Assembly: GCA_003387805.1 (NCBI GenBank)
Contig: QGSR01000011.1
Span: 1-16,692, forward strand
Length of the DNA stretch: 16,692 bases
DNA from: Bacillota bacterium
Lineage (GTDB): Bacteria > Bacillota > Limnochordia > Limnochordales > ZCTH02-B6
Direction of reading: 5' to 3'
A program made the position numbers and the translations under genes. Below, piece after piece: positions 1,112 through 13,962 of this stretch (its first letter is position 1; every line of letters begins with the position of its first letter). The notes beneath the pieces were generated by a model. It had not been told where the DNA came from and did no database searches. It was given only the letters and a program-made list of their open reading frames with translations.

Positions 1112-1144
1112 ACGACGGCGAACGACTGCAAGGTGTGCCGTCGT
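1112..1144 (+). promoter_or_regulatory. Leader hairpin before petB
   Basis: ACGACGGC at 1112-1119 and GCCGTCGT at 1137-1144 form a perfect 8-bp stem with a 17-nt loop. It ends 35 nt before the petB start. No U-tract follows, so it is more likely an mRNA leader structure or an operator than a terminator. Confidence 0.45.
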
Positions 1145-1179
1145 TTGGCAGGGCGCGGCAGGGAGGTCTTGGTTCTGGT

Positions 1180-1953
1180 ATGAACCTCATCAAGTGGATC
1201 ACGTCATCCCGTTTCTGGAAATCCTGGTTCCGCAATCCGTATCCACGGGACCGGCGGTCGCGGGCCATGGTCATCTTGAACAGCTTGGCGCTTCACCTGC
1301 ACCCCGTGCGCGTGCCCAAGCGGGCCACCAAGGTGACCTACACGTGGGGTCTGGGCGGCCTGGCCACCTGGATGTTCATGATTCTTACTTTTACCGGCGT
1401 GTTCCTCATGTGGTACTACATCCCCACCACCGAAGACGCCTACTGGACCATCGTCAAGCTGGAGACGGGCGTCACCTTCGGCTCGTTCTTCCGCAATCTG
1501 CACCGGTGGGCGGCCCACGCGATGGTCATCGCCGTCATCGCGCACATGACGCGGGTGTTCTACACCGGTTCCTACAAGCCGCCGCGTGACTTCAACTGGG
1601 TTATCGGCGTGGGGCTTTTGCTGCTGACGCTGCTGCTCAGCTTCAGCGGCTACTTGCTGCCCTGGGACCAGCTCGCGTACTGGGCCATCGCCGTCGGCAT
1701 GGAGATGGGCGGCGCGACGCCGTTCATCGGCAAGCAGGTGCGCATGGCGCTTCTGGGCGGCTTCGAAATCGGGCAGCAGACCCTCATCCGCTGGTACACG
1801 CTGCACGTCATCTTCCTGCCGCTGGCAACCATTTTCCTCATGGCGACCCACTTTTGGCGGGTGAGAAAGGACGGCAACATCTCCACCCCCGTGTATGAAG
1901 ACGACGAAGAAGAGCTGCGCAGAGTCGCCGAAGAGCGGCGCCGGCGGCGCTGA
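1180..1953 (+). CDS. petB: Cytochrome b6 subunit of bc-type quinol:cytochrome c reductase
   Basis: Diheme membrane subunit of a b6f/bc-type complex that oxidises quinol and moves electrons across the membrane between two b hemes. It has 257 residues and four membrane spans, the usual size for a split cytochrome b6. Heme ligands are H108/H122 in span B and H209/H224 in span D. The 15-residue second spacing is the b6 type, as against 14 in mitochondrial bc1. The LPWDQLAYWA block follows span C. The ATG at 1180 is chosen over an in-frame GTG at 1135 because GGAGGT (1162-1167) precedes it and homology starts there, though a 12-nt spacing is long. Oddity: the protein has no cysteine, and the position of the b6 Cys before the LGG motif is glycine. 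A covalent heme c(n)/c(i) therefore cannot form as in chloroplast b6f or Bacillus. The C-terminal tail is acidic, then Arg-rich. It is followed by subunit IV after 30 nt. Confidence 0.95.
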   Translation: MNLIKWITSSRFWKSWFRNPYPRDRRSRAMVILNSLALHLHPVRVPKRATKVTYTWGLGGLATWMFMILTFTGVFLMWYYIPTTEDAYWTIVKLETGVTFGSFFRNLHRWAAHAMVIAVIAHMTRVFYTGSYKPPRDFNWVIGVGLLLLTLLLSFSGYLLPWDQLAYWAIAVGMEMGGATPFIGKQVRMALLGGFEIGQQTLIRWYTLHVIFLPLATIFLMATHFWRVRKDGNISTPVYEDDEEELRRVAEERRRRR

Positions 1954-1983
1954 GACGCGCGGTTCGGGAGGGAAGCGGTTTCT

Positions 1984-2736
1984 ATGGCTACGGAAGTCCG
2001 GCGACCGGGCACGGACGAAGAGCAGGACGATCTGCTCCGAAACGTAAAGGAAAGTGAACTGAAACCGGTTCACACGTGGCCCCATCTGGTCAGCATCGAG
2101 CTGATCGGGGCGCTGATCTTCACGCTGCTGCTGTCGATCATGGCCATTTTCGTGCGGGCGCCGTTCTACCGCATGGCGGACCCGGAGCTGACGCCCAACC
2201 CGGCCAAGGCGCCGTGGTACTTCCTGGGGCTGCAGGAGCTGCTCTTGCACATGCACCCGGCCCTGGCCGGCGTGGTGGTGCCTACGGCCCTTCTGATTTT
2301 GCTGGGCGCCATTCCGTACATCGACAAGAGCAAGAAGGGCACCGGCATCTGGTTCTACAGCAAGAAGGGCGTGCCCATCGCCGTGTTTTCGGCGATTTAC
2401 ACGACGGTGTGGAACCTGAGCCTCATCCTGCTGGACGAGTATTTGCCGGCGGGCGGCTCCACGGGCATCGCTCCGTTCCTGAAGATGCACGGATTCCCCG
2501 ATGCCTTCGGCGAGATTTTCGTGCCGCTGGTCTTTATGACGTTCATTCCGTTTTCGCTGTGGGTCATCGTCAAGCGGCGGTGGAACGCGGACACGCGCGA
2601 GCTTATGATCGCGATGTACTCGTTCTTCCTGGCGTCGTTCATCGTGCTGACCATCGTCGGCACCGCCTTCCGCGGCGAAGGCATGGCGTTGACCTGGCCG
2701 TGGGAGATTCCGCATCCGCCCATCGGCAAGGAGTAA
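1984..2736 (+). CDS. petD: Subunit IV / cytochrome b C-terminal domain of bc complex
   Basis: Partner of the preceding cytochrome b6 that completes the quinol-oxidation (Qo) pocket. Start ATG with GGGAGGGA at 1966-1973. At 250 residues it is much longer than chloroplast-type subunit IV (about 160 residues, three spans). I count about five spans, near residues 37-57, 93-113, 129-149, 176-198 and 208-230. The Qo motif, PEWY in most complexes, reads A76-P77-W78-Y79 followed by FLGLQELL, so the acidic residue is absent. Similar APWY/PPWY variants are known to me from menaquinol-type complexes of other bacterial groups. The end (GTAFRGEGM..TWPWE) resembles the extended C-terminus of those proteins. 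There is no heme c motif here, unlike the fused QcrC of Bacillus, because the cytochrome c is a separate gene further on. Confidence 0.93.
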   Translation: MATEVRRPGTDEEQDDLLRNVKESELKPVHTWPHLVSIELIGALIFTLLLSIMAIFVRAPFYRMADPELTPNPAKAPWYFLGLQELLLHMHPALAGVVVPTALLILLGAIPYIDKSKKGTGIWFYSKKGVPIAVFSAIYTTVWNLSLILLDEYLPAGGSTGIAPFLKMHGFPDAFGEIFVPLVFMTFIPFSLWVIVKRRWNADTRELMIAMYSFFLASFIVLTIVGTAFRGEGMALTWPWEIPHPPIGKE

Positions 2737-2746
2737 GCCGCCCGGG

Positions 2747-2765
2747 GCGGCCGCCGGGCGGCCGC
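2747..2765. repeat. GC-rich palindrome after petD
   Basis: GCGGCCG at 2747-2753 and CGGCCGC at 2759-2765 form a 7-bp stem with a 5-nt loop just after the petD stop. There is no T-run, so at most it is a weak or factor-dependent 3' end between the cytochrome b and Rieske parts of the cluster. Confidence 0.35.
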
Positions 2766-2806
2766 TTGGGGGCTTGACGGGTGCGGCGGTGCGGCGTTGT
2801 CCGGAG

Positions 2807-2834
2807 TTGTACAAGACGGCTGTGAGCGTATAGA
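2807..2834 (+). promoter_or_regulatory. Candidate internal promoter before the Rieske gene
   Basis: TTGTAC (2807-2812) and TATAGA (2829-2834) are separated by 16 bp. They lie 48 bp before the Rieske start, in the only sizeable gap of the cluster (145 bp). AGACGTGT occurs twice just downstream (2832-2839 and 2847-2854). This may allow separate expression of Rieske-small protein-cytochrome c. Confidence 0.45.
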
Positions 2835-2881
2835 CGTGTCTATTGCAGACGTGTGCTGAAGGAACAAAGAGGTGAAATGCG

Positions 2882-3379
2882 ATGGCGCAAGCCGGCGTCG
2901 AGCGGCGCGACGGGGACAAGATGACCCGGCGCGGCCTTTTGCGCAACATTATGTGGGTGTCGGCGGGAGCCTTTGCCCTGCAGGTGGCTGTCACGGGCCT
3001 GTCCATGTTCTGGCCCCGCAAAGTGGAAGGGTTCGGTTCGGTCATTGACGCGGGTCCGCTGGAGAACTTCCCCGTGGGCTCGGTCACCCGCGTTCGCGAC
3101 GGCCGCTTCTACATTTCCCGCCTTCCCGAAGGCATCCTGGCCCTCTACTGGCGCTGCCCGCACCTGGGCTGCACGGTGCCGTGGGTGGAGAGCGAGCAGC
3201 TTTTCATCTGCCCGTGCCACGGCTCGGTGTACGAGCCCACCGGGCAAAACATCGCCGGGCCGGCGCCGCGGCCGATGGATGTCATGCAGGTCGAGATCCG
3301 CAACGGCCGGGTTCTGGTCAACACGGGCGTCATCCGGGAGCGCGCCCGGCATACGCCCGCGGACGTGACACCCGTCTGA
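2882..3379 (+). CDS. petC: Rieske [2Fe-2S] protein of bc complex
   Basis: High-potential iron-sulfur subunit that takes one electron from quinol at the Qo site and passes it to cytochrome c. It has 165 residues. Cluster ligands are C92 and H94 (CPHLGC) and C110 and H113 (CPCHGS). C97 and C112 would form the usual disulfide. The N-terminus has a twin-arginine-like TRRGLLR at about residues 15-21, followed by one hydrophobic span to about residue 41. This fits Tat export with a retained anchor, as in other Rieske proteins. The start is the ATG preceded by AGAGGTG (2868-2874). The Gly-Pro-Ala-Pro-Arg-Pro segment after the second ligand loop is the conserved Pro loop. It follows subunit IV, whereas in Bacillus the Rieske gene comes first. 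Confidence 0.95.
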   Translation: MAQAGVERRDGDKMTRRGLLRNIMWVSAGAFALQVAVTGLSMFWPRKVEGFGSVIDAGPLENFPVGSVTRVRDGRFYISRLPEGILALYWRCPHLGCTVPWVESEQLFICPCHGSVYEPTGQNIAGPAPRPMDVMQVEIRNGRVLVNTGVIRERARHTPADVTPV

Positions 3380-3397
3380 GGAGGTCTTGGGCGCACC

Positions 3398-3532
3398 ATG
3401 TTCATGGTACCGGACGTCATTGAGCTGCTGCTGGTCTTTACGCTGTTCTTTACGGGGCTGGCGCTGATGTACCTGGCTCAGCGCTGGATCGACGGCAAGC
3501 AGCGCGACGATGCCGTGGATGACGAAGACTGA
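3398..3532 (+). CDS. 44-residue single-span membrane protein in the bc cluster
   Basis: A short open frame between the Rieske and cytochrome c genes, starting MFMVPDVIELLLVF and ending in the acidic DDAVDDED. About residues 8-26 form one hydrophobic span, followed by a short basic/polar segment and an acidic tail. GGAGGT (3380-3385) directly follows the Rieske stop and lies 12 nt before the ATG, or 18 nt before a second in-frame ATG at 3404. The next gene follows after 35 nt. The position, Shine-Dalgarno and clean membrane topology argue that it is real. By analogy with the tiny one-span subunits of b6f (PetG, PetL, PetM, PetN) it may be an accessory subunit or assembly factor. That is inference: I recognise no sequence family. 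Confidence 0.72.
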   Translation: MFMVPDVIELLLVFTLFFTGLALMYLAQRWIDGKQRDDAVDDED

Positions 3533-3567
3533 CCGTCGGCCGACGCGGTGAAAGGAGTCGTTCCCCA

Positions 3568-4527
3568 GTGAACGGGAGAAAGTACGTCGTCGTCCTCATA
3601 CTCAGCTGGGCGCTCATCATCACGTGGGGCGTCTATCTCGCGTTCGAGGGCACGCGGATGGCCACGGCCGAGCAAGCCCACCTTGACGACCTGATCCAGC
3701 GCGGGCTGGTTACGTACGCCGAAAACTGCGTGGTCTGCCACGGGGCGATGGGACAGGGGCACGTGGGGCCGCCGCTCAACCGGGAAGAGTTTCGGGGCAA
3801 CCCGAACGAAGACAAGGATACGTTTGAATTCATTGTTTCGACCGTGCGGGACGGCCGGCCGGGCACGACGACGCCGCGCTGGGAGCGGCTGGTCACCGGC
3901 GAGTGGGCGTCCTACACCGCCATGCCCACCTTCGGCAGCGTGCACGGCGGCCCGCTGAACGAGCTGTACCTGCGGGCGGTGGCCACGTTCATTATGATGG
4001 GCGACTGGCGCCAAGTGTCGCAGCATATTCCGGATCCGGTCATTCCGGAAGACCGGGAAGTGGCCCTGAGCCGCATGCCCGACGCGACGGGGCTGACGCC
4101 GGAGGAAAATCGGCTGGCGAAACAGCTGTTCATGGACCGGGGCTGCGTGACGTGCCACTCCATCAACGGCGTGGGCGGCTTCGTCGGCCCGGACTTGACG
4201 CAGGTCGGCGCGTGGACGCAGCTGCTGCCGGTGGAGGAATGGGAAGCGTTCCTGTACGAGTGGGTGGAGTTCCCGCCGACGAAGGACAACCGCATGCCCG
4301 TGTACTGGTCCAACTACTCGGGCCCGCTGCCGTACGCGGCGGTGGGCGCGGCGGCGACGCGTGCGGCCGCCGGCACGGCCGCGGACGGCCAGCAGCCGAT
4401 GAGCGTGTGGGAGGCCATCGCCCTGCCCCAGCCCCTGCAGTACGGCCCGACGCAGATGCCGCCCATGCCCATGACCGACGAGGAGCGGGCGGCCTTGGTG
4501 CGGTATTTGGCCCGCCTGGGGCGGTGA
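3568..4527 (+). CDS. Membrane-anchored diheme cytochrome c
   Basis: Electron acceptor for the Rieske protein, probably filling the role of cytochrome f/c1. It has 319 residues. An N-terminal anchor (about residues 6-27) is followed by two cytochrome c domains. Heme motifs are C54-V-V-C57-H58 and C193-V-T-C196-H197. Likely sixth ligands are M119 (TAMPTFG) for the first heme, and M243 (RMPVYW) or one of M297/M300/M302 (MPPMPM) for the second. An Ala-rich stretch between M243 and M297 lengthens the second domain. The start is a GTG with AAAGGAG at 3551-3557, 10 nt upstream. It is separate from subunit IV, unlike Bacillus QcrC, where subunit IV and a single cytochrome c domain are fused. No oxidase genes are in view, so the onward acceptor is unknown. 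Confidence 0.93.
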   Translation: MNGRKYVVVLILSWALIITWGVYLAFEGTRMATAEQAHLDDLIQRGLVTYAENCVVCHGAMGQGHVGPPLNREEFRGNPNEDKDTFEFIVSTVRDGRPGTTTPRWERLVTGEWASYTAMPTFGSVHGGPLNELYLRAVATFIMMGDWRQVSQHIPDPVIPEDREVALSRMPDATGLTPEENRLAKQLFMDRGCVTCHSINGVGGFVGPDLTQVGAWTQLLPVEEWEAFLYEWVEFPPTKDNRMPVYWSNYSGPLPYAAVGAAATRAAAGTAADGQQPMSVWEAIALPQPLQYGPTQMPPMPMTDEERAALVRYLARLGR

Positions 4528-5145: not shown

Positions 5146-6312
5146 TTACACGGCGGCGTCGGCGGTGACGCCCGCGGCCTGGCGCAGCCACCGGCCGATG
5201 GCCCAGGCCGCGACGGCGGCCCGCAAGGCCATGGTGGGGACCTCCAGGTACTCCTGGTCGCTGTGGGCCCGGCCGCCCACCGGGCCCAGCGAGTCGATGA
5301 CGGGCACGCCCGCGTCCGCGATGAGGTTGGCGTCGGACACGCCGCCCGAGGACGTTTCGGTGAACTCCACGCCGAAGGCCCGGCCCGCTTCCCGCATGTG
5401 CTCGAACAGCGCGGCGATGCCTGCCGTGCGCTCCAGCGGCGGCCGGGTAATGCCGCCGGTCAGCTCCACCCGGTAGCCCGGATGCGACGGCCGGCAGACG
5501 GCCCGAATCTGCTCCAGTACCGCTTCGCCGTCGGCTTTGGTGGCGAAGCGCAGGTCCACCCGGGCCGTGGCCCGTTCGGCCACCACGTTGCGGGCCGTGC
5601 CGCCGGACACGATGCCCACGTTGACCGAGCGGCCCTTTTTCGTGTCGGTGAGGGCGTGCAGGGCCAAAATTTTGCGGGCCAGCTCCTCGATGGCGCTGAG
5701 GCCGTCCTCGATGGCCGCGCCGGCGTGCGCGGCTTTGCCGGTAATGGCCAGCGTCAGATCGCCCACGCCCTTGCGGCTGGTGGTCAGCGTTTCCATGGAC
5801 TGGGCGGGCTCAAACACGAAGGCGGCCCGGCAGAGGCGGGCCTGCTCGTAAATGACGGGGCGGGAGTGGATGGAGCTGATCTCCTCATCCGCGTTGACAA
5901 CGATGCGCACGTGCCGGTGCAAGCCCCCGGCCCGTGCCAGCGCCTTCACCACGTAGAGCAGGCTGACGATGCCGCTTTTCATGTCAATGACGCCCGGCCC
6001 GTACGCCCGGGCGCCCTCGCGGCGGAAGGGCCGGGCGGCTGCGGTGCCCGGCGGAAAGACGGTGTCGATGTGACCCATGAGCAGCACCTGGGGGGACCGG
6101 GGGCCGTACGCCACCAGGTGTGGGCCCACGGGCGACGGCCGCCGCTCCGTGGTCAGGCCCAGCTCCTGCAGCATGGGCTCGATGATGTCCACGATGCGCT
6201 CGATGCCTTCGGCGTGGCCGGTGCCCGAATCGATGTTCACCAGCCTCTCCAAGAGCGCCAGCATCTCATCCTCCCAGCTGACGAACAACGCTCTCATTTC
6301 GTCGGGTGTCAA
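5146..6312 (-). CDS. M20 family metallopeptidase, CPG2-like
   Basis: Zinc-dependent amidohydrolase of the M20/ArgE/DapE family, closest in layout to glutamate carboxypeptidase (CPG2). It would cleave a C-terminal residue or an acyl group from a small peptide or N-acyl amino acid. It has 388 residues. Metal and catalytic residues are H81 (GHIDTV), D110 (GPGVIDMKSG), E143 (catalytic base) and E144 (NADEE), E168 (FEPA) and H350 (RAHSDQEY). There is no signal peptide, so it is cytoplasmic. The start is taken as TTG at 6310-6312, because GGAGG (complement of 6323-6327) is 10 nt away, whereas the in-frame ATG at 6295-6297 would be 25 nt away. It is the last gene of an operon with an IclR regulator, a solute-binding protein and two permeases, which suggests it processes what the importer brings in. 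Exact substrate unknown. Confidence 0.93.
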   Translation of the reverse strand: MTPDEMRALFVSWEDEMLALLERLVNIDSGTGHAEGIERIVDIIEPMLQELGLTTERRPSPVGPHLVAYGPRSPQVLLMGHIDTVFPPGTAAARPFRREGARAYGPGVIDMKSGIVSLLYVVKALARAGGLHRHVRIVVNADEEISSIHSRPVIYEQARLCRAAFVFEPAQSMETLTTSRKGVGDLTLAITGKAAHAGAAIEDGLSAIEELARKILALHALTDTKKGRSVNVGIVSGGTARNVVAERATARVDLRFATKADGEAVLEQIRAVCRPSHPGYRVELTGGITRPPLERTAGIAALFEHMREAGRAFGVEFTETSSGGVSDANLIADAGVPVIDSLGPVGGRAHSDQEYLEVPTMALRAAVAAWAIGRWLRQAAGVTADAAV

Positions 6313-6322
6313 TGGAACGAGG

Positions 6323-6327
6323 CCTCC
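6323..6327 (-). promoter_or_regulatory. Ribosome binding site that selects the TTG start of the M20 gene
   Basis: GGAGG on the minus strand, 10 nt before TTG (6310-6312) and 25 nt before the nearest ATG. It favours the TTG start. Confidence 0.7.
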
Positions 6328-6403
6328 GTTCTGTCAAGCAAGCTTCGCCACATCCGTACGCCGCCGCGCCGTCCCCGGCGCGTCCCCCACCGAGGCCGCG
6401 GCG

Positions 6404-7300
6404 TCACAGCGTTTTCTGCTTCGGATCCAGCGCGTCCCGCAGACCGTCGCCGATGACGTTGAAGGCCAGCACCGTGACGGTGATGGCCAGGCCCGAGTAC
6501 ACCGCCAGCCACGGGTTGCTCAAGATGTTGTCCACACCGGATTTGATCATGTTGCCCCAGCTGGGCCACGGCGGCTGCACGCCCAGGCCCAGGAAGCTCA
6601 AGCTGGCCTCGGTCCGGATGGCCGTCGCGATCCAAAGGGTGGACATGACCGAAATGGGGCCCAAAATGTTGGGCAGCACGTGTTTGAACAAGATGCGGGT
6701 CGTGGACGCGCCCATGGCCCGGCAGGCCACGATAAACTCCCGCTCCCGCAGGGCCAGCACCGGGCCCCGGGCCAGCCGGATGAAGTTGGGCAGCAGCGAC
6801 AGCGCCACCGCGATGATGACGTTGGTCGTGCCCGGCCCCAGCACCACCACCACCATGAGCCCCAGCAGCAGGCTGGGGAAAGACATCAGCACGTTGACGA
6901 CGCTGGAGACCATCAGGTCAAACCGGCCGCCGATGTACCCGGACAGGCCTCCGATGACGGTGCCCACCACGCCCGCCAGAAACACCGACGCCAAGCCCAC
7001 GATGAGCGAGGCCCGGCTGCCGTAGATGATGCGGGACAGGACGTCGCGCCCGAACTCGTCGGTGCCCATGCGGAACTGTTCGCTGGGCCCCCGCAGCCGG
7101 TAGATGATATGCTGCTCCGCCGGATCGTAGGGCGCCAGGTACGGCGCGAACACGGCCATGAGCGTCAGCAGGAGGACGACGATGACCCCCGCGACGGCCA
7201 TCTTGTCCCGGCGAAAGCGGCGAAACCACGGCGCGTTCCAGCCGCCGGCGAACGTCGCGTGGTCCGCCGCGGGCGTGCCGGTTGCTTGCCTTGCAGCCAA
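6404..7300 (-). CDS. ABC transporter permease, DppC/OppC type
   Basis: Inner-membrane permease of a peptide/nickel-class (PepT) ABC importer, paired with the upstream DppB-like gene. It has 298 residues. A cytoplasmic N-terminus of about 30 residues ends in a basic RRFRRDK, then comes the first span (about 34-55). The OppC-type N-terminal region (YLAPYDPAEQH) and a periplasmic-side loop precede the conserved core. The EAA loop that docks the ATPase is visible as EFIVACRAMGASTTRILFKH, followed by LPNILGPI and SFLGLGVQPPWPSWGNM, classic for DppC. The start is TTG at 7298-7300 with GGAGGG (complement of 7308-7313) 7 nt before it. It lies 31 nt after the DppB-like gene. No ATPase gene follows, so the importer must borrow one from elsewhere. 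Confidence 0.94.
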   Translation of the reverse strand: MAARQATGTPAADHATFAGGWNAPWFRRFRRDKMAVAGVIVVLLLTLMAVFAPYLAPYDPAEQHIIYRLRGPSEQFRMGTDEFGRDVLSRIIYGSRASLIVGLASVFLAGVVGTVIGGLSGYIGGRFDLMVSSVVNVLMSFPSLLLGLMVVVVLGPGTTNVIIAVALSLLPNFIRLARGPVLALREREFIVACRAMGASTTRILFKHVLPNILGPISVMSTLWIATAIRTEASLSFLGLGVQPPWPSWGNMIKSGVDNILSNPWLAVYSGLAITVTVLAFNVIGDGLRDALDPKQKTL

Positions 7301-7331
7301 CGCAATTCCCTCCGTCCGTCAAGCCGTGCGG

Positions 7332-8270
7332 TCAGTCGTAGCGAATGGTCGGGTCCACCACGCCGTACAAGATGTCCACCAGCGTGTTGACCACCACGAT
7401 GACCGCGGCGTAAATCATCAGCCCGCCCTGAATGAGCGGATAGTCCCGCTGCTGAATGGCGCCCACCAGCAGCCGGCCCAGCCCCGGCCGGTTGAACACC
7501 GTCTCCGTCAGCACCGTGCCCGCCAGCAGCGTGCCGATGTAAAGCCCCATGACGGTAATGACCGGAATCAGGGCGTTGCGCAGCGCGTGATGGTACGACA
7601 CCCGGCGAGGATGGACGCCTTTCGCGTGGGCGGTGCGGATGTAGTCCTCCTGGAGCACTTCCAAAAGCGACGAGCGGACCATGCGCATAATAAAGGAAGC
7701 CTGAATGAGTCCCAGACTCAAGGCCGGCAAAAACGTGTAGTACATCCGCTCGAAGAAGCCGCCCCGGGGGGCGGAGATGACCGGAAACCATTGCAGGTGG
7801 ATGGCGAAGGCCAAGAGCAGCAAAATGCCCAGATAAAAAGCCGGCATCGACAGGCCCAAAAGCGCCACGATGCGGCTGATGTAGTCGAAGATGCTATTGT
7901 GGCGCACGCCCGCGATGATGCCCGTGGGCAGGCCGATGACGGTGCCGATGAGCATGCCCCAGAACACCAGCTCCAGCGTGTCGGGGAACGCCCGGAACAC
8001 CTGCTCGGCCACGGAGCGGCCCGTAATCAGCGAGCGGCCGAAGTCGCCGCGCACGGCGTTCAGCAGAAACTCGCCGTACTGGACCAGCAGCGGCCGGTCC
8101 AGCCCCATCTCCGCCCGCAGCCGCTCCAGCGCCTCCTGCGTGGCGGAGGCGCCCAAAATGGCCACCGCGGGGTCGCCCGACGCCATGCGCATGACGAAAA
8201 ACACCAGGCTGCCGACGATGAGCAGCGTCGGGATGATGGACAACAGCCGGCGTGCGATGTATGCTGTCAC
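7332..8270 (-). CDS. ABC transporter permease, DppB/OppB type
   Basis: First permease of the peptide-class importer. It has 312 residues. The N-terminus (MTAYIARRLLSIIPTL, then the first span) and the GDPA block are typical of DppB/OppB. About six spans are visible. The EAA docking loop reads DYIRTAHAKGVHPRRVSYHH and is followed by ALRNALIPVITVMG. The end (VDILYGVVDPTIRYD) is the standard DppB C-terminus. The start is GTG at 8268-8270 with an AGGGGG site (complement of about 8279-8284). That site sits right beside a large hairpin in the gap to the binding-protein gene, which may set the expression ratio. Confidence 0.95.
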   Translation of the reverse strand: MTAYIARRLLSIIPTLLIVGSLVFFVMRMASGDPAVAILGASATQEALERLRAEMGLDRPLLVQYGEFLLNAVRGDFGRSLITGRSVAEQVFRAFPDTLELVFWGMLIGTVIGLPTGIIAGVRHNSIFDYISRIVALLGLSMPAFYLGILLLLAFAIHLQWFPVISAPRGGFFERMYYTFLPALSLGLIQASFIMRMVRSSLLEVLQEDYIRTAHAKGVHPRRVSYHHALRNALIPVITVMGLYIGTLLAGTVLTETVFNRPGLGRLLVGAIQQRDYPLIQGGLMIYAAVIVVVNTLVDILYGVVDPTIRYD

Positions 8271-8290
8271 GTCTTTTGCCCCCTAGGCCA

Positions 8291-8343
8291 AGGCCGGGGA
8301 GGCGAGCGGGGGGGTGGGGCTGTGGGCCGCTCGCCTCCGGCCT
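8291..8343 (-). promoter_or_regulatory. Strong hairpin between binding-protein and permease genes
   Basis: Arms at 8327-8343 and 8291-8309 pair over 17 bp with a 2-nt bulge, around a G/C-only-rich loop of 17 nt. No U-tract follows on the minus strand. Instead the permease ribosome site begins within about 10 nt. Such intercistronic stems often protect the 3' end of the binding-protein message and lower permease expression. The role here is inferred from position. Confidence 0.7.
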
Positions 8344-8382
8344 AAAGCCTGCACTTGGTTAGGGCCGCATGGGCCGCCGAGA

Positions 8383-9993
8383 CTACCGACCGATCAAGTC
8401 GGTGTTCTCGTTGTAAATGTAGTGTTCGAACAGGTTGTCGAAGTGGTTGGGACCGATGAGCTCATAGCCCAGGTCCACGTACGGCTGGCGCGCCATGGTG
8501 GAGTAGCGCTGCGCGTAAGGCATGGCCGCGGCCACTTCCATGATGATGCGCTGCGCCTCGGCGTACAGCTCCCGCTGCCGCTCGGCGTTGTGCTCAAAGC
8601 GCGCCTCTTCGATCAAGTGGTCCACGCTGGCCACCACGTCGCCCAGGTGCGAGAAGTTGGTGATGGCCGTCGGTTTGCCCACGATGGCGTCGCTGTGGTA
8701 GAACTGCGACAAGTACACGTCCGCGATGGGCAGACGGGTCGCGTTGTACAGAATGACCCCGTTGCGGTTTTCGCGCACGAGGGCGTGGTAGCTGGCGTGG
8801 TCCACGATGTTGAGATTCATGGTCACGCCGATGGCCCGCCAGTGGGCCTGGAAGATCTGCGCGAAGGGCAGGTAGCTGGACGCTTCGCTCATGTAGATGT
8901 CAAAGGTGAAGCCGTTGGGATAGCCGGCTTCCGCCAGCAGCTGCCGGGCCCGCTGCGGGTCGTAGTCGTACGTCTCGATGCCTTCGGTGGTGTGGCCGAA
9001 ATAGCCCATGGGCACGGGGCTCTTGAGCTCCCTGGCCAAAGCGGGCCCGAGGAACTCCACCACGTCCTGGCGGTTGATGGCGTAGGACAGAGCCTGCCGC
9101 ACCAGCAAGTTGTCAAAGGGCGGCATGGTCATGTTGTACTGCAGGAAGTAGCCGTTGCCCGGGCCGACGGTGTCGACGATGAGGCCCTGGGACCGCATGC
9201 GGTCCACCCAGATCTGCTCGGCGTTGCCGTCGGCCGCGTCAATTTCCCGGGTCCGCAGGGCCAGCTCACGGGTGGCCGTGTCGGGCATGAAGAGGAAGAC
9301 GAGGCCGTCCAGCTTCGGCGCGCCCTTGAAGTAGTCCTTGTTGGCCGCCAGGACCACGCTCTGGCGAGGATTGTACTCCTCGATCATGAACGGGCCGGTG
9401 CCGATGGGGCGGAAGCGGTACTCCTCGCCCAGCTCCTCCACGGCCTTCTTGCTGACGATGAAGCCGGAGTGGTAGCCCACCAGCCGCAGCAGCGTGAACG
9501 GGTCCGCCGCGTGCAGCTCAATCTCGACCGTGTACGGATCGACGGCCCGCACCTCTTTGATGTTGGCCACCTCGCTGCGCCACGGGGAGCCCACTTCCTC
9601 GCTCTTCATGCGGTTGAAGGAGAAGACCACGTCCTCGGCCGTGAACTCGCCGTAGCCGTGGTGCCACTGCACGCCTTGCCGCAGGTAGAACGTCCAGACG
9701 GTGCCGTCTTCGTTGACCTCCCAGCGCTCGGCCAGGTCAGGCTGGATGCGCTCCATGTCCACCGTGCCGGGCGGCAGGTCCACCAGGCCGTTGAACATGG
9801 CTTTCACGATGGGGTACTCCCCGAAGTTGGTCGCGAAGTGCGGGTCCAACGTGCCCACGTCGGCCACGCCCGAGCCGATCCGCATCACCTTGGCGCCGGC
9901 AGGCGCGGCGAAGACGAAAGCCGTCAGGGCGAGGGCGACGACCGCGGCCGCCAGGGGCAGCAGCCGAAAATGAGACCGCATCTTGCTCAGCAT
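8383..9993 (-). CDS. Peptide-type ABC solute-binding protein (SBP family 5)
   Basis: Extracytoplasmic binding protein (DppA/OppA class) that captures the substrate for the two permeases encoded next to it. It has 536 residues from the chosen ATG at 9991-9993. AAGGAGA (complement of 10001-10007) is 7 nt upstream of that ATG. An in-frame ATG at 10015-10017 would add 8 residues but lacks such a site and overlaps the IclR stop. A signal peptide is clear: MLSKMRSHFR, a hydrophobic core, then FAAPAGA before KVMRIG. The body shows the SBP_bac_5 layout (LDPHFATN...FNGLVDL near the start, then RQGVQWHHGYGEFTAEDVVFS, then RPIGTGPFMIEEY). There is no cysteine anywhere, so it is not a lipoprotein, which is unusual for a cell without an outer membrane. 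Peptide class is firm; the ligand is unknown. Confidence 0.95.
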   Translation of the reverse strand: MLSKMRSHFRLLPLAAAVVALALTAFVFAAPAGAKVMRIGSGVADVGTLDPHFATNFGEYPIVKAMFNGLVDLPPGTVDMERIQPDLAERWEVNEDGTVWTFYLRQGVQWHHGYGEFTAEDVVFSFNRMKSEEVGSPWRSEVANIKEVRAVDPYTVEIELHAADPFTLLRLVGYHSGFIVSKKAVEELGEEYRFRPIGTGPFMIEEYNPRQSVVLAANKDYFKGAPKLDGLVFLFMPDTATRELALRTREIDAADGNAEQIWVDRMRSQGLIVDTVGPGNGYFLQYNMTMPPFDNLLVRQALSYAINRQDVVEFLGPALARELKSPVPMGYFGHTTEGIETYDYDPQRARQLLAEAGYPNGFTFDIYMSEASSYLPFAQIFQAHWRAIGVTMNLNIVDHASYHALVRENRNGVILYNATRLPIADVYLSQFYHSDAIVGKPTAITNFSHLGDVVASVDHLIEEARFEHNAERQRELYAEAQRIIMEVAAAMPYAQRYSTMARQPYVDLGYELIGPNHFDNLFEHYIYNENTDLIGR

Positions 9994-10000
9994 GTTTTCA

Positions 10001-10007
10001 TCTCCTT
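10001..10007 (-). promoter_or_regulatory. Ribosome binding site that selects the binding-protein start
   Basis: AAGGAGA on the minus strand, 7 nt before ATG 9991-9993. It decides against the upstream in-frame ATG at 10015-10017. Confidence 0.75.
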
Positions 10008-10013
10008 CTCTCG

Positions 10014-10958
10014 TCATTCACCGGTTCCGTACTGCCGCGTGTGCTCGCTGCGCTCGCTCACGGAGCTGGCTGCTTGGTCCTCGTCCGCCCGCTGCGGGCC
10101 CGGACGCGGCATCCCTCCTTCCGCTGCAGCGTTGGCCGAAGGTTCGGGCCCGGCGGCGCAGGAGGCCTCGTCGGCGCCGCCGTCTTCGGCCCCGTCGGCG
10201 CCGCCGGGGAGAACCCCGAACTGTTCCGAAATCTTCCGCGCCGTGCGCCGCAAAAGCCGCAGGCACATTTGCCGCCGCTGGGCGGTCATGCGCACGGTGG
10301 GGCCCACTACGGACAAGCTGGCGGTGACGTAGCCGAACACGTCCCGCACGGGGACGCTGACGGCCGTCACGCCCTCCTCGTTTTCGCCGGTGCTGACGGC
10401 CCAGCCCCGGGCGGCGATGTCGGCCAGCTCGCGCCGCAGCTGGTCCAGCCGCCCGAATACCGGATCGTCGGGCGGCAGGTGGGCCCGGAGCGCCTGGACC
10501 ACTTCCGGCCAGGCCATGTGCGCGGCCAGGATTTTGTTGGACGCGCCCGCGTGGAGTGTGCGGCGCTCGCCGACGCGGCCGGTCATGCGCAGCGAGTGGG
10601 GGCTTTCCACGGCCGCGACGATAACGGTTTGCCCGCCGTCCACTTGGGTGAGTTTCACGGTCTCTTCGGTCAGCTCGGCCAGCTGCACCATGTGCGGGTA
10701 CGCGGCCCGGGCCAGCGCGGGCTGCGCCATGCGGGCCAGGGACAAGATGCGCAGACCCAGGCGGTAGCGGCGGGTGAGAGGGTCCTGGCTGAGGAAGCCG
10801 TGCTGGGCGAAGGTGGCCAGCGTCTTCTGCACCAGGCTCTTGGGCAGGTCCAGGCGGCGGGCCAGTTCCGAAACGCCCCACTCGGGCCGTTCGGATTCGA
10901 AAAACGTCAGCATCCACAAAGAACGATCAAGCGTTTTGAGCAAGTGCGGTCTCGTCAT
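10014..10958 (-). CDS. IclR-family transcriptional regulator
   Basis: DNA-binding regulator at the head of the importer/peptidase operon. It has 314 residues. The winged helix-turn-helix occupies about residues 8-65 (KTLDRSLWML..., WGVSELARRLDLPKSLVQKTLATFAQHGFL), followed by YRLGLRIL and the IclR effector domain to about residue 248 (TLHAGASNKILAA, STGENEEGVTAVSVPV, ASLSVVGP). The effector-domain cysteine usually found in the GxxNxxEGxxxxA/C region is not evident. About 65 extra residues at the C-terminus are Ala/Gly/Glu/Pro-rich and probably disordered; the family is usually near 250 residues. The start is ATG 10956-10958 with a GGGGG-type site. It is followed after 20 nt by the binding-protein gene. 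A promoter and repeated sites directly upstream suggest autoregulation. Confidence 0.93.
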   Translation of the reverse strand: MTRPHLLKTLDRSLWMLTFFESERPEWGVSELARRLDLPKSLVQKTLATFAQHGFLSQDPLTRRYRLGLRILSLARMAQPALARAAYPHMVQLAELTEETVKLTQVDGGQTVIVAAVESPHSLRMTGRVGERRTLHAGASNKILAAHMAWPEVVQALRAHLPPDDPVFGRLDQLRRELADIAARGWAVSTGENEEGVTAVSVPVRDVFGYVTASLSVVGPTVRMTAQRRQMCLRLLRRTARKISEQFGVLPGGADGAEDGGADEASCAAGPEPSANAAAEGGMPRPGPQRADEDQAASSVSERSEHTRQYGTGE

Positions 10959-12934: not shown

Positions 12935-13047
12935 CCGTCCCCCGGCGGCGGGGCGGGCGCCCGTGCGCGCCCGGACCTGGCCGCGTGCCGGGCCGGCCGC
13001 CGGCGGCGCGCGCCGACGCCGTCGCATCATGACAAGAGGTGACCTTT

Positions 13048-13962
13048 GTGAAACACGTGCTTTCGCTGCACCACATGCCCGCGGAAGACATCGCCGCCGT
13101 TTTGGAGACGGCCGAAAAGGTGAAGAAAAATCCCGAGCGGTACGAAGACCGGCTGAAGGGCCGCACGCTGCTGATGCTGTTTCAGAAGACGTCGACGCGC
13201 ACGCGGCTGTCCTTTGAGCTGGGCATCCAGCAGCTGGGCGGCCGCGCGGTGGTCATGGACTGGGACAAGTCCAACTTCGCCATCTCGCCCATTCGCTACG
13301 AGGCCCGCTACGTGTCGCGCCACGCGGACGTCATCATGGCGCGGCTCATCCGCCACAGCGACTTGCGGCAGCTGGCCGAGTCGGCCGACGTGCCGGTCAT
13401 CAACGGCTGCGACGAGCGGTACCATCCGACCCAGGCGCTGGCCGATCTGCTGACCATCCGGGAGCGGGCGGGCGGCTCGAAAGACGTGACCGTGGCCTAC
13501 ATCGGCATGCACAACAACGTGGCCAACTGCCTCACCGCCGGCGTCACGAAGATGGGCTACAACATGATCCTGATCACGCCCGAGGCGAATGAAGCCGCCC
13601 GGGACGAGGAGCTGCTGGCGGCCGCCAAAGCCACGGGCCGCCTCGAAATTACGACGGATCCGCGGGCGGTGCGCCAGGCCGACTTCGTGTACACCGACAC
13701 GTGGGTGGACATGGAGAACTTCAACAACCCGGCCTACGCCGAGGAGAAGGAGCGGCGGCTCCGGGTGATGATGCCGTATCAGGTCAACGCCGAGCTGCTG
13801 GGCGGCAGCCGGCCCTACATCATGCACGACATGCCGGTGCACCCGGGCCTGGAGATCGCCGAGGAGCTCATTGAATCCGAGCGCTCGATCATATATGATC
13901 AAGCTGAGAACCGCCTGCATGCGGAAAAGGCGCTGATGCTCCACCTGCTGGGCGCCGCGTGA
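13048..13962 (+). CDS. argF: Ornithine-type carbamoyltransferase with altered substrate site
   Basis: Transfers the carbamoyl group from carbamoyl phosphate to an amino acid acceptor, nominally ornithine to citrulline in arginine metabolism. It has 304 residues, normal length. The carbamoyl-phosphate site is intact: S49-T-R-T-R53, R99 region, H126-P-T-Q129. The amino-acid side is not standard. The D-x-x-x-S-M-G loop of ornithine transcarbamylases reads D217-T-W-V-D221-M-E223, and the HCLP motif reads H260-D261-M-P263, so the conserved Cys is Asp. The GDxNNVANS block reads GMHNNVANC (153-161). The loop that follows the first domain (SNFAISPIRYEARYVSR, 75-91) also differs from the usual S-Q-L-G-R-G-E-P. 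GTG 13048 is chosen over GTG 13039 because AGAGGTGA precedes it. Tandem ARG boxes support an arginine-related role. Another acceptor (acylated ornithine, putrescine or other amine) is possible. Confidence 0.9.
   Translation: MKHVLSLHHMPAEDIAAVLETAEKVKKNPERYEDRLKGRTLLMLFQKTSTRTRLSFELGIQQLGGRAVVMDWDKSNFAISPIRYEARYVSRHADVIMARLIRHSDLRQLAESADVPVINGCDERYHPTQALADLLTIRERAGGSKDVTVAYIGMHNNVANCLTAGVTKMGYNMILITPEANEAARDEELLAAAKATGRLEITTDPRAVRQADFVYTDTWVDMENFNNPAYAEEKERRLRVMMPYQVNAELLGGSRPYIMHDMPVHPGLEIAEELIESERSIIYDQAENRLHAEKALMLHLLGAA

Follow-up and report, generated by a model that had tools for sequence, protein, structure and literature searches.

The stretch of DNA analysed here (the window; 16,692 nucleotides of contig QGSR01000011.1 from the Bacillota assembly GCA_003387805.1, class Limnochordia) carries, at positions 13048..13962 of the forward strand, a carbamoyltransferase gene with altered substrate-site motifs. 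Translation, Pfam and NCBIfam profile searches and a protein search define a product of 304 amino acids plus stop, and both Pfam carbamoyltransferase domains score far over their cut-offs (137 and 130.6 bits). An in-frame GTG at 13039 is an alternative start giving a product of 307 amino acids; the residue coded at 13048 is the first residue of most aligned relatives. Residue numbers below count from this GTG and are three higher than those of an earlier, sequence-only reading, whose motif positions (STRTR 49-53, HPTQ 126-129, GMHNNVANC 153-161, DME 221-223 and HDMP 260-263) all agree with the translation. That reading held that the enzyme keeps the carbamoyl-phosphate site of ornithine transcarbamylase (OTC) and has lost the ornithine-site motifs, which suggested a different acceptor or a divergent subfamily. 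We found that the motif changes are the signature of one clade of the OTC branch and not a lone oddity of this gene.

Residue alignment and translation place the active-site segments as follows, all on the forward strand. FQKTSTRTR (13180..13206) holds the carbamoyl-phosphate motif STRT and the OTC lysine K50, and is followed by a clade-specific 80s loop, MDWDKSNFAISPIRYE (13255..13302), with W75, N79 (Gln in OTC) and E88, and by the carbamoyl-phosphate motif HPTQ (13423..13434). GMHNNVANC (13504..13530) retains N159 and N160, with the Asp of the OTC motif substituted. DTWVDME (13696..13716) retains D220 and M225 and has D224 at the Ser position of the SMG loop; ENFNNP (13714..13731) is an insert past M225, and HDMP (13825..13836) replaces HCLP.

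The HDMP clade and its placement

A protein search needing no motif gave 7731 matches, and among the 120 of these that were listed the nearest non-self matches are 86-89% identical to the window protein. Aligned with 24 sequences from this search, the window protein forms a set of 25 rows that all keep D224, M225 and E226; one row, P0032, has HPMP where the others have HDMP. Two clade peptides, scanned against the GTDB species genomes, recovered at least 551 relatives, each carrying one of the peptides, and the best-scoring 80 of the 551 were taken as loci. Because one scan peptide includes DME, the presence of DME in these 80 loci is partly by construction. By record title, the best 80 belong to Bacillota (chiefly Paenibacillus, with Paenactinomyces, Rossellomorea and "Bacillus sp." records), Deltaproteobacteria, SAR324 and Bathyarchaeota. 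The fetched loci yielded 131 carbamoyltransferase sequences, some genes being counted twice, of which 101 combine HDMP with D.W.DME and 30 combine HCLP with SMG (SMH in one of them); none is mixed.

In the tree, the HDMP clade is a single group (100/100) within the OTC branch, which, together with its fixed residue changes, bears out the proposal of a divergent subfamily. Its closest kin are less sharply defined, as tree tests rejected neither a single clade with putrescine carbamoyltransferase (PTC; P = 0.437) nor one with the HDLP proteins, that is, the diaminopropionate and diaminobutyrate carbamoyltransferases (DPTC/DBTC; P = 0.275). Earlier work set aside "UTC" sequences lying outside both OTC families (PMC514541), which may or may not include the HDMP clade. 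A search of the open-licence literature found no publication on the clade, and it listed none on OTC in bathyarchaeal arginine biosynthesis or on carbamoyl phosphate in bathyarchaeal pyrimidine metabolism.

Kept and changed active-site residues

We compared 82 distinct rows reading HDMP with 33 rows of ordinary OTCs. Since rows were sorted into the clade by HDMP, positions 264 and 265 (D264-M265 in place of the Cys-Leu of HCLP) are not an independent test, whereas the remaining positions are. Invariant in all 82 clade rows and all 33 OTC rows are K50, S52-T55, R102, H129, P130, Q132, N159, N160, D220, M225, H263, P266, N291 and R292. Fixed in the clade and unlike OTC are W75 in the 80s loop, N79 (82 of 82 rows; Gln in 33 of 33 OTC rows), E88 (Thr in 31 of 33), C124 (Leu in 33 of 33) and D224 (Ser in 33 of 33). 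Three further positions vary within the clade and are uniform in the 33 OTC rows: 83 (Ser or Ala versus Glu), 267 (Ile or Val versus Ala) and 157 (Ile, Val or Ala, Met in the window protein, versus Asp). The insert following M225 is a gap in every OTC row.

The 80s-loop Gln, contributed by the neighbouring subunit, binds carbamoyl phosphate. STRT and HPTQ are present, but with this Gln (Q82 in Escherichia coli) replaced by Asn in 82 of 82 rows, it is slightly too strong to call the carbamoyl-phosphate site intact. The loss on the ornithine side was overstated in its turn: SMG and HCLP are indeed changed, but K50, N159, N160, D220 and M225 are kept in all 82 rows, and within the SMG loop, read earlier as DME, Ser is replaced by Asp while Met is kept as M225 and Gly falls at the short insert.

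As described for the Arabidopsis OTC-ornithine structure (PMC10765591), N232, D293 and S297 hold the alpha-amine; N232, the M298 backbone and, via water, K121 hold the carboxylate; and the L334 backbone oxygen holds the side-chain amine. In the window protein, K121, N232, D293 and M298 correspond to K50, N159/N160, D220 and M225, none of which changes in any of the 82 clade rows. Judged by this alignment, S297 is the only one of the ornithine-holding side chains described there that is replaced, by Asp in the HDMP clade; D224 in its place could also bind the alpha-amine. The accessible part of a review (PMC4581275) states that HxLP side chains make no direct substrate contact, and also proposes an alpha-amine contact by the Asp of HDLP in DPTC/DBTC.

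Comparison with known enzymes

With ordinary OTCs (ArgF/ArgI/ArcB) the window protein shares fold, length, STRT, HPxQ, N159, N160, D220, M225 and K50, the Lys two residues ahead of STRT that marks OTC (82 of 82 clade rows). It differs from them, as the clade does, by SMG changed to DM plus insert, HCLP to HDMP, the 80s-loop Gln to Asn, and substitutions of Asp 157 and Leu 124. The nearest solved structure is the Pyrococcus furiosus OTC 1a1s, 41% identical to the window protein. A fold search adds no functional information, as many OTCs tie within one Z unit, and no solved structure of a clade member was found in the PDB, where the best sequence match is an ordinary OTC (215.6 bits). The automatic OTC model NF011379 (PRK14804) already catches the HDMP clade, being the top NCBIfam model for all six members scanned; no paper naming NF011379 or PRK14804 was found in the open-licence literature. 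Four of the five members scanned besides the window protein fall below its cut-off of 373 bits, L010 narrowly (372.6), and the Bathyarchaeota member L037 passes with both NF011379 (388.8) and TIGR00658 (306.9 bits; cut-off, 280.85).

Three other carbamoyltransferase types were rejected. The window protein scores 129 bits with the N-acetylornithine carbamoyltransferase model NF003384 (cut-off, 288) and 34.2 with TIGR03316 for the knotted carbamoyltransferase YgeW (cut-off, 500), and its translation is missing the RxQxER loop of aspartate carbamoyltransferase, which reads RIQRER in the pyrB of the same genome.

Gene content of genomes with the HDMP gene

Searches of the window's own genome (2.37 Mb in 454 contigs, 91.34% complete) turned up two carbamoyltransferase genes, the window gene and pyrB. 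No second argF was found in it, an absence that is part of what the sequence-only reading had set against a new acceptor. Its contig C331 holds argC, argJ, argB, argD and carB in a row. Across a tool-chosen set of 41 relatives that includes this genome, counted without regard to kinship, 24 carry an ordinary argF, six the HDMP gene (G000, G040-G043 and G069), none both and 11 neither; the HDMP motif is visible in five of the six, and the copy in G043, which stops at a contig end, has the clade's 80s loop. We found argG over cut-off in 14 of the 24 argF genomes, five of the six HDMP genomes and none of the 11 with neither. Because ten argF genomes also have no argG, an OTC lacking argG is not peculiar to the HDMP clade. 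In G041 (L172, G041:C8, 7278-8391), argG reaches only model position ~297 and is followed by a short C-terminal argH piece, so that the arginine pathway there may be broken; the break is either a deletion or a misassembly.

The genomes searched also hold a second, weaker class of ArgH-like genes (313.8-379.6 bits with TIGR00838), to which the copy in the window's genome (G000:C210:436-1755) belongs. Both G001 and G043 have a stronger argH besides this class; PRK06705 is the best model for the G001 copy (L170, G001:C91, 5204-6694; 371.9 bits; cut-off, 883), which, by eye, lies near transporter-like genes. The class was not taken to prove that the window's genome makes arginine.

Beyond the class, we drew sets of 40 or 42 genomes from the 80 loci and the window's own family. 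All hold the HDMP gene; the sets were selected, not sampled, so the counts are no census, and completeness is known for the window's genome and the 41 relatives only. Eleven of the 40 also carry an ordinary argF. In the other 29, the further carbamoyltransferase matches are the pyrB of the window's genome and 29 fetched stretches, 26 of which carry the aspartate motif RxQxER. The remaining three are a fragment ending short of the motif (G018), a second HDMP piece at a contig end (G027) and, in G039 (L261, G039:C1:2000-3500), a C-terminal piece of an HCLP-type OTC adjoining a run of 100 N, owing to which G039 was excluded from all arguments; G030 has no further match. In 28 of the 40 genomes, therefore, HDMP is the only type of OTC-branch gene found. 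TIGR00658 gives 123, 133 and 335 bits for an N-acetylornithine enzyme, a YgeW and a putrescine enzyme, so genes of these types should have surfaced in the genome search as well. In 15 of the 28, argC, argG and argH are all over cut-off. Rossellomorea sp. BNER and Paenactinomyces guangxiensis both have these three genes, and no other OTC was found in either. G002 (open reading frames named by match or similarity) has argC-argJ-argB-argD-carB together and argG-argH elsewhere, with no argF.

No arginine gene was recognised by eye beside the HDMP gene in 24 of the 80 loci laid out (window and L022 aside) or in further layouts; in several Bathyarchaeota it lies, by eye, near ribosomal-protein genes. 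The arginine deiminase pathway is no general partner, as PF02274 occurs in just two of 42 genomes (G017 and G037); other citrulline-forming families were not searched genome-wide. Elsewhere in the window lie a metallo-hydrolase (4-930; nearest to a YtnP lactonase model, 313.5 bits versus a cut-off of 425), then in a row a cytochrome b, a second b-type subunit, a Rieske protein and a c-type cytochrome (1135-4527), and, on the reverse strand, an M20 peptidase, two Opp/Dpp-type permeases, a family 5 solute-binding protein and an IclR regulator (5146-10958). The cytochrome b passes the ExtP cut-off (297.2 versus 290), and loci L007 and L008 have similar cytochrome/Rieske genes upstream of the carbamoyltransferase.

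A probable divergent OTC

We consider it likely, from the residues, fold and gene content above, that the window gene encodes a divergent OTC and that this enzyme took the place of argF in these lineages. It would use carbamoyl phosphate to carbamoylate L-ornithine on its side-chain amine, yielding citrulline, and would fill argF's usual step of the arginine pathway in several lineages, the window's family among them. Its active site would have been recast clade-wide, with Asp for Ser next to the alpha-amine, Asp-Met for Cys-Leu in HxxP, Asn for the 80s-loop Gln and a short insert in the mobile loop. Fold, clade, kept and changed residues and gene content are computed; from them we infer which reaction is catalysed, in which direction, and what each altered residue does.

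A number of observations weigh against an OTC function. The best NCBIfam model for the window protein, NF011379, gives 336.1 bits (cut-off, 373) and TIGR00658 gives 275 (cut-off, 280.85). DxxxSMG and HCLP are used as OTC marks in the accessible parts of two publications (PMC4581275 and PMC6022934); the window protein reads DTWVDM plus insert, with Asp and Met kept and Ser and Gly not, and HDMP. Because both motifs and the curated cut-offs fail, we class the protein as an OTC-branch variant rather than as an ordinary member or an established new activity. In the window's genome argG was not found, for which loss and incompleteness (91.34%) are both possible, and the single argH-like match over cut-off is of the weaker second class (344 bits). 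Among the 15 HDMP-only genomes with all three arginine genes, argH exceeds 450 bits in 11 and reaches 357-380 in G004, G005, G014 and G023, and the argC match holds one stop in G004, G014 and G023. The 11 genomes that also carry argF (nine Paenibacillus and two "Bacillus sp. FJAT") count on the same side; in G010, the one arginine cluster read among them, argF sits between argD and argG-argH. So do eight Bathyarchaeota that keep the HDMP gene with no argC, argG or argH over cut-off, and a clade member on a Priestia megaterium plasmid (L197, NZ_CP085446.1, 6732-18689), in a cluster with a PEP-mutase-like gene slightly below cut-off (318.3 bits), a decarboxylase subunit, two ATP-grasp genes, a YqcI/YcgG gene and a flavin oxidoreductase. 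This cluster resembles one for a phosphonate product, where the HDMP enzyme could either take part in biosynthesis or act as a self-protecting OTC.

Several of these points would also fit an acceptor that is a different alpha-amino acid (another diamino acid or an ornithine derivative), with OTC activity absent or secondary: the argF-bearing genomes, the eight Bathyarchaeota and the Priestia cluster. To them are added the fixed changes D224, D264, M265, N79, W75 and E88, the alpha-amine contact proposed for the Asp of HDLP in the excerpted review (PMC4581275) and the unrejected grouping with HDLP proteins. The testable evidence nevertheless makes this acceptor change, which the sequence-only reading had raised, unlikely. 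All five alpha-carbon anchor residues are kept, the signatures of PTC and DPTC/DBTC are absent, argF and the HDMP gene are mutually exclusive among the 41 relatives from the class, and 15 of the 40 genomes with argC, argG and argH would have no OTC at all.

The eight Bathyarchaeota are G017, G019, G020, G029, G030, G031, G032 and G036; G026 was left out because it has argH and carB pieces on one 3.2 kb contig. In all but G032, genome searches detected no carbamoyl-phosphate synthetase large chain and no carbamate kinase. An aspartate-type pyrB is present in all of these seven except G030 (0.6 Mb), which has none; of the six pyrB stretches read, five show pyrI near pyrB by eye (confirmed in L248), and it was not seen in G036. 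Among the eight, PF02274 occurs in G017 only, in a dimethylargininase-like protein. Near pyrB in G036 (L253, G036:C17, 3484-5516) lie genes whose best matches, both below cut-off, are agmatine deiminase and N-carbamoylputrescine amidase. Catabolic transcarbamylases release carbamoyl phosphate in some microbes, according to the available part of one paper (PMC6022934), and by analogy the Bathyarchaeota HDMP gene may do so or use another acceptor. It is doubtful that the enzyme there runs in reverse as the sole carbamoyl-phosphate source for aspartate carbamoyltransferase, fed by external citrulline or another ureido compound; on that reading, the changed acceptor site would belong to an OTC-type enzyme adapted to both directions.

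Two further readings, with either of which the tree alone is compatible, were rejected on signature residues. A PTC, perhaps forming carbamoyl phosphate from N-carbamoylputrescine, could draw on the G036 genes and on the unrejected tree grouping. It is very improbable, since K50 is present (Gln in PTC), N159/N160 are not the T and Q of the Enterococcus PTC, the C-terminal extension is missing (307 versus 339 amino acids), TIGR04384 gives 210 bits (cut-off, 500) and the window protein has none of the PTC's own 230-loop, (Y/W)(G/W)(V/L/I)x by the criteria in the accessible part of PMC3282769. A DPTC/DBTC of antibiotic pathways is less credible still: the Asp of HDxP is common to both in the excerpted review (PMC4581275), and two Streptomyces rows keep K50, but the clade has D220 where the DPTC/DBTC described there have Thr or Ser (Ser in both Streptomyces rows), an insert that they lack, Met instead of Leu in HDMP, a loop (Asp-Met-Glu) unlike TRWQ(S/T), and a housekeeping-like spread in single copies.

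The members of the HDMP clade that we read are without both OTC marks, yet by gene content they seem to carry out the same step. If they are indeed divergent OTCs, DxxxSMG and HCLP would not be diagnostic of OTC, and arginine-pathway calls for these genomes would change. If another acceptor were true, the OTC label would be wrong in many species.
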